NCBI RefSeq assembly: GCF_002288265.1
Contig: NZ_CP016778.1
Coordinates: forward strand, 496,001-560,000
Direction of reading: 5' to 3'
DNA: 64,000 nt
Source of the DNA: Candidatus Planktophila versatilis
GTDB lineage: Bacteria; Actinomycetota; Actinomycetes; Nanopelagicales; Nanopelagicaceae
Below the pieces are notes generated by a model. The model saw nothing but the letters and a program-made list of their open reading frames with translations, was not told the DNA's origin and made no database searches. The translations under genes and the position numbers were made by a program. Positions within the stretch are counted from its first letter, which is position 1. Each line of letters starts with the position of its first letter. Shown piece after piece: positions 51,503-53,672 of the stretch.

Positions 51503-52942
51503 ATGCGTCGCGCAAAAATAGTTTGCACCTTAGGTCCAGCAGTTGAGTCTCCAGAGAAAGTAAAGGAGCTCATCGAAGCCGGAATGAATATGGCTCGCTT
51601 AAATCTCTCCCATGGTTCCTATGAAGAACACCAAGGGCGCCTAGACCGAGTGCGTGCAGCTGCGAAAGAGGCGGGAAAAGCTGTTGCAGTTCTGGTTGAT
51701 TTGCAAGGACCAAAGATTCGTTTAGCTCGATTTGAAAACGGACCACACGAGCTATCACGTGGGGATATCTTCACCATTACTACCGATGAAGTTGCTGGAA
51801 CAAAAGAGCGCGTTGGTACTACCTATAAAGGTCTGCCTGGAGATTGCAAAGCTGGCGATCGTATTCTTATTGATGATGGAAAAGTGACAGTTGAAGTCAT
51901 CGAAGTAAAAGGTAACGATGTCATCACCAAATGTATTCAGCCTGGCTCAGTGAGCAATAACAAGGGAATTAACTTGCCGGGTGTTGCCGTCTCGGTGCCA
52001 GCGATGTCGGAAAAAGATGAGAATGACTTGCGCTGGGGACTCCGTGCTGGCGCTGATTTCATCGCACTTTCATTTGTTCGTAATGCCGCAGATGTGAAAG
52101 ATGTGCACGCAATCATGGACGAGGTGGGAATCCGCGTACCTGTTATTGCCAAGATTGAAAAACCTCAAGCAGTAGCAAATCTGGAAGAAATTATCGCCGC
52201 CTTCGATGGAATTATGGTTGCTCGTGGCGACCTCGGTGTTGAGCTGCCGATTGAAGATGTTCCGATGGTGCAAAAGCGCTGCGTCGAACTCTCTCGTGAT
52301 GCGGCAAAACCAGTCATAGTTGCAACACAGATGCTGGATTCCATGATTTCCAACTCTTCTCCTACGCGCGCTGAAGCAACTGACTGTGCAAATGCGGTAC
52401 TCGATGGCGCAGATGCGCTCATGCTCTCCGGTGAAACTTCTATTGGTGAATTTGCGATCCAGGCGGTTGAAACTATGGCACGCATTATCGAGCGCACTGA
52501 AGAGCTAGGCCTAGCTCGAATTCGCCCACTTACCAATAACCCACGTACTAAAGGTGGCGCAATCACAAAGGCGGCAGCAGAAGTAGGGGAAATTCTGGGT
52601 GCCAAGTTCCTGGTGACATTTACTCAATCTGGTGACTCTGCGCGTCGTATTTCACGACTTCGTTCACCGATTCCTATCATTGCAATCACTCCTGATGTCG
52701 GTACCTATAACCGGCTGGCATTGACGTGGGGCGTTGAGTCATTGATAATTTCGATGGTCAAGCACACTGATGAGATGGTTCTACAAGCAGATAAAATCCT
52801 TATCGATGGAAAGCGTGCTGAAATAGGCGAGCCTGTCGTGATTGTCGCTGGATCTCCACCAGGAATACCTGGTTCAACGAATGCGATGCGAGTACACATT
52901 GTGGGTGATGCCGTGAACGGCGTTGTTCCTGCTTATCGTTAA
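51503..52942 (+). CDS. pyk: Pyruvate kinase
   Basis: 479 residues: KIVCTLGPAVESPEKVKELI at the start, RLNLSHGSYEEH, VDLQGPKIRLARF, IAKIEKPQAVANLEEII (catalytic Lys and Glu) and MVARGDLGVELP for metal and substrate binding, then the C-terminal allosteric domain. Converts PEP and ADP to pyruvate and ATP. Confidence 0.96.
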   Translation: MRRAKIVCTLGPAVESPEKVKELIEAGMNMARLNLSHGSYEEHQGRLDRVRAAAKEAGKAVAVLVDLQGPKIRLARFENGPHELSRGDIFTITTDEVAGTKERVGTTYKGLPGDCKAGDRILIDDGKVTVEVIEVKGNDVITKCIQPGSVSNNKGINLPGVAVSVPAMSEKDENDLRWGLRAGADFIALSFVRNAADVKDVHAIMDEVGIRVPVIAKIEKPQAVANLEEIIAAFDGIMVARGDLGVELPIEDVPMVQKRCVELSRDAAKPVIVATQMLDSMISNSSPTRAEATDCANAVLDGADALMLSGETSIGEFAIQAVETMARIIERTEELGLARIRPLTNNPRTKGGAITKAAAEVGEILGAKFLVTFTQSGDSARRISRLRSPIPIIAITPDVGTYNRLALTWGVESLIISMVKHTDEMVLQADKILIDGKRAEIGEPVVIVAGSPPGIPGSTNAMRVHIVGDAVNGVVPAYR

Positions 52943-52959
52943 TCCACAACGCTCACCGT

Positions 52960-52988
52960 TTCACCTATCTGCCGACTTCTAATACGAT
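52960..52988 (+). promoter_or_regulatory. Promoter of the tRNA gene
   Basis: TTCACC (52960-52965), 17-bp spacer, TACGAT (52983-52988); the tRNA begins 10 nt after the -10 box. Confidence 0.5.
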
Positions 52989-52998
52989 ATGGGCTCAC

Positions 52999-53071
52999 GC
53001 CTCGGTACTCCAACGGTAGAGAGGGCAGTCTCAAACACTGCATAGTGTCGGTTCGAATCCGACTCGAGGCA
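52999..53071 (+). tRNA. tRNA-Leu-like (anticodon CAA) with a short variable loop
   Basis: 73 nt. Acceptor stem GCCTCGG/TCGAGGC (last pair G-U), Leu-type D-arm (3-bp CTC/GAG stem, loop CAACGGTAGA), anticodon stem GCAGT/ACTGC with loop CTCAAAC and anticodon CAA at 53032-53034, variable loop of only 5 nt (ATAGT), T-stem GTCGG/CCGAC with loop TTCGAAT, discriminator A. CCA is not encoded. Bacterial tRNA-Leu normally has a long variable arm, so the isotype is uncertain although the anticodon reads UUG. Confidence 0.85.
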
Positions 53072-53072
53072 C

Positions 53073-53672
53073 ATGAGCAATGAAACGAGTGCCAAGAAGG
53101 CTGTCAGAATTCTGGTCGCCGAAGATGAAGCTCTGATTCGCATGGACCTCGTGGAAATGTTGCAAGAGGCGGGTTATGAAGTAATTGCCCAAGCAACTAA
53201 CGGCGAAGAAGCAATTGCGTTAGCGCTAGAACACCAACCAGATCTGGCAATCCTTGATGTGAAGATGCCGGTGCTTGATGGCATTTCTGCGGCCGAAAAG
53301 ATCATTGCAACTGCTCCAGTATTAATGCTCACAGCATTTAGCCAACGTGAGCTCATTGACCGCGCGCGAGATGCTGGAGTAATGGCATATGTGGTTAAAC
53401 CATTTACTATCGGTGATCTTGTTCCCGCTATCGAAATTGCCATCAGTCGCCACACACAGATGCAATCACTGGCAGTTGAAGTTGCTGACCTACACGAGCG
53501 ACTAGAGACTCGCAAAATAATCGATCGTGCTAAAGGAATCTTGATGAAGGCGCTAAACCTTTCAGAGCCAGAGGCATTTTCCTGGATTCAGCGGGCGGCG
53601 ATGGACCGGCGCCTCAGTATGAAAGAGGTCGCCCAGGCCGTGATTTCACCTGAAGCCGCCCTGGATAAATAG
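53073..53672 (+). CDS. pdtaR: ANTAR-domain response regulator (PdtaR-like)
   Basis: 199 residues. A receiver domain (about 10-125) has acidic pocket AEDEAL, phospho-acceptor Asp in AILDVKMP at about 64, and VVKPF with the conserved Lys. An ANTAR RNA-binding domain follows (about 130-190, ETRKIIDRAKGILMKALNLSEPEAF). ANTAR proteins bind paired hexaloop hairpins and prevent termination. Its ATG is 1 nt after the tRNA, so no Shine-Dalgarno can exist outside the tRNA. The cognate kinase is not nearby. Confidence 0.92.
   Translation: MSNETSAKKAVRILVAEDEALIRMDLVEMLQEAGYEVIAQATNGEEAIALALEHQPDLAILDVKMPVLDGISAAEKIIATAPVLMLTAFSQRELIDRARDAGVMAYVVKPFTIGDLVPAIEIAISRHTQMQSLAVEVADLHERLETRKIIDRAKGILMKALNLSEPEAFSWIQRAAMDRRLSMKEVAQAVISPEAALDK

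Follow-up and report, generated by a model that had tools for sequence, protein, structure and literature searches.

Canonical bacterial class II leucine tRNAs are exemplified by E. coli tRNA-Leu and Streptomyces bldA. According to passages of a 2023 review (PMC9976931), tRNA-Leu carries a long variable arm everywhere but in animal mitochondria, and the identity of human mitochondrial tRNA-Leu(UUR) consists essentially of A73 and A14. The same passages list A73, the A15-U48 pair, G18G19, A20a, and contacts between the D-loop and the T-loop as identity elements of E. coli tRNA-Leu, and they describe the long arm as dispensable for leucylation in E. coli, truncated arm-less variants remaining active; the dependence on the class II shape that an earlier note on the present locus had ascribed to bacterial leucyl-tRNA synthetase (LeuRS) is therefore too strong. 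In the tRNAscan-SE 2.0 paper (PMC8450103), a human CAA tRNA that lacks the long arm is discussed as a conflict of isotype.

The window, which is the whole 64-kb stretch of DNA that was analyzed, contains a single tRNA gene, named tRNA-Leu(caa) by ARAGORN and placed at 52999-53072 by the count of that program (74 nt), with an Rfam RF00005 match at 52999-53071 of 54.2 bits (gathering score, 29; E 7.1e-9). As read from the sequence (Table 1), the acceptor stem GCCUCGG/UCGAGGC is followed by U8 and A9, the anticodon stem GCAGU/ACUGC closes the loop CUCAAAC, and the T-stem is GUCGG/CCGAC, while CCA is not encoded, A73 being followed by C and then by the ATG of the next ORF. The cloverleaf was the minimum-energy structure in RNAfold (-24.9 kcal/mol, z -1.95), with 8 of 200 shuffles folding equally well and the D-arm open in the centroid structure. 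A consensus search of 52900-53110 yielded neither a sigma-70-type promoter nor a terminator. The molecule possesses the cloverleaf and the conserved core bases of tRNAs in general, but neither the long variable arm of class II (type II), in place of which it has the 5-nt AUAGU, nor the 4-pair D-stem with a 13:22 pair of class I, its D-stem consisting of 3 pairs; the loss of pairing and constraint typical of tRNA pseudogenes was not observed. Thus, ARAGORN, Rfam, the sequence, and RNAfold bore out the earlier description of a tRNA with a CAA anticodon, a leucine D-arm, and a 5-nt variable loop.

Table 1. Features of the tRNA-Leu(CAA) locus (positions in the window)
Feature	Position	Strand	Basis
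pyk, pyruvate kinase, upstream neighbor	51503..52942	+	NCBIfam pyruvate kinase models
tRNA-Leu(CAA), 73 nt, short variable loop	52999..53071	+	ARAGORN, Rfam RF00005, RNAfold, conservation
D-arm, leucine-type: CUC/GAG 3-pair stem, 10-nt loop CAACGGUAGA; A14, A15, G18G19, A20a	53008..53023	+	Sequence
Anticodon CAA, reads UUG	53032..53034	+	ARAGORN, sequence
Variable loop AUAGU, 5 nt; U48 able to pair with A15	53042..53046	+	Sequence, Rfam
Discriminator A73, leucine identity element	53071	+	Sequence
Response regulator, receiver domain	53073..53672	+	ORF, receiver-domain matches

The source genome is a single contig of 1,325,420 bases, rated 100% complete, in which Rfam gave 41 tRNA matches (40 above the cut-off) and ARAGORN, applied to the regions around these matches, gave 40 tRNAs, four of them for leucine. 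The leucine tRNAs comprised the short CAA and TAA species (74 nt each) and the long TAG (82 nt) and GAG (85 nt) species (ARAGORN lengths), with no CAG tRNA-Leu among the 40 ARAGORN tRNAs and no second CAA tRNA found in the complete genome by Rfam and ARAGORN. Six tRNAs were of class II length (2 Leu, 3 Ser, and 1 Tyr), and three other genomes of the family (G040, G114, and G090; 37, 38, and 38 tRNA matches, respectively) also had six such matches each, so that, if the isotypes equal those found here, a long UUR tRNA has no place among them. UUA and UUG are thus probably read in this genome solely by the short CAA and UAA tRNAs, as judged from the gene content. Could these be minor species beside a long-armed UUR tRNA that was missed? 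Covariance and ARAGORN scans can overlook split or intron-bearing genes, a 28-bit Rfam match (L032) had no counterpart in ARAGORN, and one tRNA (L028) was left without a name by that program. Yet the genome is a complete single contig, all 40 above-threshold matches had an ARAGORN tRNA without any long-armed one with a YAA anticodon among them, and the three relatives, their isotypes unread, had just six class-II-length matches as well, so that we consider a missed long tRNA very unlikely.

Some atypical sequences were noted in the same scans. The unnameable tRNA (L028:166-241, G000:C1:418166-418239; Rfam, 51.5 bits) has an extra base in the anticodon arm, for which ARAGORN gave ggcg. Two 75-nt tRNA-like pieces lying ~4.7 kb apart on G000:C1 (L031:204-278 and L032:217-291) scored 29.5 and 21.6 bits with the tmRNA model, which is below its threshold, and one of them was called tRNA-Gly(acc) by ARAGORN, with a G3-U70 pair possible from the letters; these pieces may derive, as att-like remnants, from the end of a tmRNA.

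The window tRNA carries A73, A14, A15-U48, G18G19, and A20a, the identity set described in the cited passages (PMC9976931). From relatives, 315 distinct short tRNA-Leu were parsed (194 genomic and 121 viral; five unparsed strings were set aside), using search patterns that fixed the loop length, some loop bases, and, in part, GG and A20a, and that left A73, U8, A14, A15, position 48, and the stems free. A73 was present in 315 of 315 sequences and A14 in 194/194 genomic and 119/121 viral ones, while positions 15 and 48 were A-U in 182, G-C in 11, and A-A in 1 of the genomic set and A-U in 98 of the viral set, the other 23 including 11 G-C. Since A73 is common among bacterial tRNAs, it is by itself little proof of leucine identity. 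The 3-pair D-stem was complete in 193/194 genomic and 113/121 viral relatives, base 13 and the last base of the D-loop were paired in none of the 315, and all 315 had a 5-nt variable loop, although for most of them this length was dictated by the search pattern.

The genome encodes a single LeuRS above the family cut-off (948.6 bits, 823 amino acids), with HMGH and MSKS motifs. This one enzyme most likely charges short UUR and long CUN tRNAs alike. As for the protein itself (L491:170-2641, G000:C1:358869-361340), it lacks a stretch of ~40 residues before MSKS that is present in 1h3n, the best-matching solved LeuRS, and it aligns in one stretch with the 822-amino-acid LeuRS 5ah5.

The isotype of the two short tRNAs was not apparent from the similarity of the tRNA body within the genome: the nearest to CAA were Leu-GAG (74%) and Glu, Asn, Arg, and an unnamed tRNA (73%), and Thr, Leu-CAA, and Asn were tied at 71% for TAA. 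Assignment by nearest-neighbor identity was rejected as uninformative, for it did not single out Leu.

UUA (60) and UUG (70) account for 130 of the 511 leucine codons in 11 ORFs of the window. The PolA sequence of the window was compared by tblastn with PolA loci from 23 of 24 genomes that had been selected for absence of the short pattern, although at least one of these genomes (G219) does carry a short CAA tRNA. Leu occupied 66.7% of 427 aligned cells at the 18 UUA codons, 64.2% of 377 cells at the 16 UUG codons, and 44.1 to 75.2% of the cells at the four CUN codons; when, to avoid circularity, only homologue Leu written as CUN was counted, the values were 57.4% (UUA) and 59.9% (UUG). As UUA and UUG fall on Leu positions as often as CUN, these results indicated that UUR codons mean leucine. 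They bear directly on the suggestion of the earlier note that the tRNA has a different charging identity, and on the fuller reading of a class I identity with charging by another synthetase and UUG recoded or mistranslated. A short variable loop combined with a Leu anticodon, and Glu, Asn, and Arg among the closest tRNAs by raw identity, would be expected under such a reading; the PolA alignment is not, nor are the conserved A73, A14, A15-U48, and 3-pair D-stem or the short form of the UAA sister, and, in our judgment, wholesale recoding in a form spread over many families would probably have been noticed. We therefore hold recoding to be highly improbable, and a recoding tRNA was discarded as a candidate on the codon alignment with PolA homologues and the identity elements, although low-level mistranslation by the short tRNA-Leu(CAA) may occur.

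The short gene proved to be strongly conserved. Within the genus, tRNA-Leu(CAA) was found in 53 of 61 genomes (counting the source genome) at 95 to 100% identity, the match being confined to positions 1-68 in one of them, and the eight genomes without a match are drafts of 62 to 92% completeness, the fullest (92%) being G039. The persistence of the short loop across these 53 genomes excluded an error of sequencing or assembly, and the degree of identity is not that of a relic. At the family level, the short YAA pattern was matched in 111 of 112 genomes, some by chance; among the matches listed, most of the family genomes have a single clear tRNA each for CAA and TAA. Across the 194 genomic relatives, standard pairs made up 3847 of 3880 cells over 20 stem pairs (99.1%), compared with a mean of 73.6% and a maximum of 74.9% in a shuffled control that ignores relatedness, and 18 of the 20 pairs had changes on both sides; the parser chose the frame with most pairs, which biases these stem counts toward pairing.

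Within the family, the neighboring genes are conserved as well. pyk was present in 48 of 48 family loci examined, and the response regulator, which we take to be of the ANTAR/PdtaR type, adjoined the CAA tRNA in 45 of these 48, the remaining 3 ending at or near the tRNA. A second Candidatus Planktophila versatilis locus (L175) had the same gene arrangement, its regulator being 98.5% identical. Of 21 loci drawn from other families and from another class, 19 likewise had the regulator beside the CAA tRNA, and of 36 named loci carrying a short CAA tRNA, 30 had it within the stretch. Here, as in 34 of the 42 family loci counted, the regulator ATG begins 1 nt past A73, so that cleavage at the tRNA 3' end could set the 5' end of the message and yield a leaderless regulator mRNA. 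This arrangement would suit the proposal of the earlier note that the tRNA is a decayed copy, kept for processing of its 3' neighbor. Such a copy would not be expected to retain an intact cloverleaf, near-identity in the genus, and compensated stems, or to be the only CAA tRNA of its genome; moreover, the tRNA persists outside the family even though the regulator is reversed there in 50 of 58 loci. Decay thus appears very improbable, and a pseudogene was eliminated by the near-identity in the genus, the kept identity bases, and the stem compensation.

We then determined how far the short form extends. A looser pattern matched 279 of 344 class-level genomes, a rough tally that includes chance matches (as revealed by backward-pattern controls) and misses T32 tRNAs (L397 and L398), and a stricter pattern matched 76 of 296 phylum-level genomes. 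ARAGORN identified 20 of 20 tRNAs sampled from other families as short tRNA-Leu, as well as 117 of at least 118 stretches matched in named genomes, where 72 of 80 titles among the matches listed were actinobacteria (Mycobacterium, Nocardia, Corynebacterium, Bifidobacterium, Streptomyces, and others). Short tRNA-Leu were also confirmed by ARAGORN in metagenome-assembled genomes (MAGs) labeled Christensenellaceae, Planctomycetota, Rokuibacteriota, Deltaproteobacteria, Gemmobacter, Chloroflexaceae, and "bacterium," labels that can err through contamination; for a MAG stretch labeled cyanobacterium (L228), ARAGORN did not confirm a short tRNA-Leu. Among viral contigs, at least 120 stretches matched, and 119 of those had a short tRNA-Leu by ARAGORN; the named phages Kykar, Trina, and Yaboi carry similar tRNA-Leu. 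A search of plasmids with the 301-base locus gave no match. Short tRNA-Leu(UUR) is therefore widespread in Actinomycetota, sporadic in otherwise-labeled MAGs, and present in many viral contigs. Two individual stretches deserve mention: the MAG labeled Chloroflexaceae (L212) has both short CAA and short TAA tRNA-Leu in a stretch of 26 tRNAs, and in Mycobacterium phage Faith1 (L493:300-373) a short tRNA-Leu is annotated with the anticodon TAG, by which the phage short forms extend beyond UUR.

The slot itself was surveyed by searching for the regulator, irrespective of the tRNA. In 24 genomes without the short pattern, the regulator was present in 12, and 13 loci contained six long, two short, and five times no tRNA-Leu(CAA); in 35 further genomes it was present in 32, and the 30 loci read held 15 long, 11 short, and four times none. 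Both forms occurred within each of four families (f4, f9, f17, and f22). The earlier note had taken a normal long arm in relatives at this locus as a sign of sequence error: none was seen in the own genus, and it is in several other families that a long tRNA-Leu(CAA) occupies the slot.

To follow the two forms along lineages, trees were built. One genus (that of G198) is called Streptomyces-like here, as named Streptomyces loci fall among its loci on the tree; the regulator was found in 40 of its 41 genomes, and the 30 loci read comprised 19 short and 11 long forms. On a tree of regulator DNA from 38 loci (these 30, two other, and six named; 26 short and 12 long), the state changed 11 times, at least 4 of the changes being forced by well-supported branches, and shuffled labels gave a mean of 10.4 changes, with 422 of 500 shuffles as low, indicating that the forms are unclustered. 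The class-wide tree, for which 65 of 76 loci were usable (42 short and 23 long; five rows flagged as long branches), required 17 changes, at least 6 of them forced, relative to a shuffled mean of 19.0 (89 of 500 as low). In both trees, many branches are weak and sampling is uneven, some genomes having been picked for a pattern match, and the changes could be overcounted if the regulator itself has recombined. These data indicate repeated exchange between short and long tRNA-Leu(CAA) at one slot across the class.

How the forms switch was examined in pairs of loci close on the regulator tree. In five mixed-form pairs, the tRNAs were 0.45 to 0.55 identical, whereas the DNA 150 to 300 nt upstream was 0.85 to 0.91 identical; identity was 0.62 to 0.71 over the 150 nt upstream and 0.31 to 0.51 over the 150 nt downstream. 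In the alignments, the sequences began to diverge some 50 to 70 nt before the tRNA, and a hairpin further downstream was common to three of the five pairs. Four same-form pairs gave tRNA identities of 0.99, 0.70, 0.55, and 0.67, with flanks of 0.62 to 0.92 upstream and 0.43 to 0.57 downstream; as low values occur in these pairs too, the slot and its near flanks are generally variable, and a clear contrast is confined to the tRNA. In the Streptomyces-like slots (L461-L490, L396, and L441), many different tRNA sequences and varied near flanks were seen beside the conserved regulator.

These comparisons favor whole genes as the unit of change, and the switch most likely proceeds by their recombination. 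If the arm had instead been deleted in place in each lineage, the rest of the tRNA would be expected to remain alike, and the low tRNA identity of mixed pairs (against that of the DNA further upstream) counts against this, with the caution that two of the four same-form pairs are also low (0.55 and 0.67) and that the 150-nt flanks are low in both sets. Deletion would in turn account for the sharing of one slot by both forms and for the kept spacing between the tRNA and the regulator match (132 to 193 nt in the 38 Streptomyces-like loci). On balance, we regard in-place deletion as unlikely.

For gene replacement, phage-borne tRNA genes are a plausible source. As described in PMC10865867, the tRNA-Leu-CAA gene of M. 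smegmatis (attB-11) is an integration site of phages Omega and Gaia; since integration disrupts this host gene, Gaia carries a tRNA-Leu-CAA of its own. The tRNA-Leu(CAA) of Gaia is a long form of 83 nt, and such a phage copy is a possible route to gene replacement. A wider reading, which we put forward tentatively and with more doubt than confidence, is that actinobacteria and their phages share a pool in which short and long tRNA-Leu(CAA) serve as interchangeable cassettes, swapped repeatedly at one slot even between close relatives because of phage integration there, pressure from agents that cut or modify one tRNA-Leu form, or both. If true, a core translation gene would show a trans-species polymorphism.

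Taken together, the data make it very probable that the window gene encodes a functional, UUG-reading tRNA-Leu from a widespread short-arm group of bacteria and phages, charged by the single LeuRS without a long arm, and that the forms in its slot have been swapped, likely as whole genes. In this model, the short tRNA-Leu(UUR) would keep the leucine-type D-arm and core while the 5-nt loop replaces the long arm; the CAA tRNA and its short UAA sister would be the probable sole readers of UUA and UUG in the genome; LeuRS would recognize them via A73, A14, A15-U48, and D-loop/T-loop contacts, as for the E. coli enzyme; and across the class, short and long CAA genes would have been exchanged repeatedly at the slot, most likely by whole-gene recombination with phage tRNA genes as a plausible source. 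The analysis demonstrates the sequence features, their conservation, the tRNA inventory, the meaning of the codons, the identity elements, the synteny, and the alternation of forms, while we infer expression, charging by LeuRS, and the replacement route. The earlier idea of a naturally shortened tRNA-Leu holds as far as the short form is concerned, but this form seems to represent an ancient lineage and not a loss at this locus. The tRNA-Leu(CAA) gene appears to be essential.

Compared with canonical class II tRNA-Leu, the short form shares A73, A14, A15-U48, the 3-pair D-stem, a D-loop of 10 to 11 nt, a Leu anticodon, and probably the same LeuRS. It differs in having a 5-nt loop and no long arm, and in the D-stem, which is mostly GYC/GRC or CUC/GAG, as opposed to GCG/CGC or GUG/CAC in the long tRNA-Leu of the own genome. 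Like tRNA-Leu(UUR) of animal mitochondria, it is a leucine tRNA without a long variable arm, but a bacterial one with a well-paired cloverleaf and conserved D-loop and T-loop bases. The tRNA-Leu of phages (Kykar and Faith1 of Mycobacterium, Trina of Rhodococcus, and Yaboi of Streptomyces) resemble the actinobacterial short form and are annotated as tRNA-Leu in most records, although they are phage-borne and in some cases lie in tRNA clusters (Faith1). With the tRNA-dependent lysogeny of Gaia and Omega at attB-11 (PMC10865867), the present case shares a host tRNA-Leu(CAA), there the site of phage integration, whereas the tRNA-Leu(CAA) of Gaia is long and that of the window short. The tRNA-Met-like CAA gene in the tRNAscan-SE report also combines a CAA anticodon with the lack of a long arm, but it arose by a recent change to A36 and was judged silenced or doubtful, while the window gene is conserved and is the only CAA tRNA of its genome.

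The part of the open-licence PMC literature that was searched contained no account of a short-armed bacterial tRNA-Leu, while the phage records that annotate such genes as tRNA-Leu place the genes already in public view; what seems undescribed is the shape of the bacterial short tRNA-Leu, how widely it occurs, and its alternation with the long form. The window gene is most likely an ordinary leucine tRNA in function, but a structural variant for which the review literature leaves no place in bacteria, and one of two interchangeable forms. Annotation filters that take a missing arm as an identity conflict (PMC8450103) could misjudge real genes of this kind. This actinobacterial lineage offers a natural test of tRNA recognition by LeuRS, and the alternation at one slot allows one to ask why an apparently essential tRNA gene swaps so often. 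Leucine tRNAs are taken to be marked by their long arm, and an actinobacterial lineage in which short tRNAs alone apparently read two of the six leucine codons contradicts that view.
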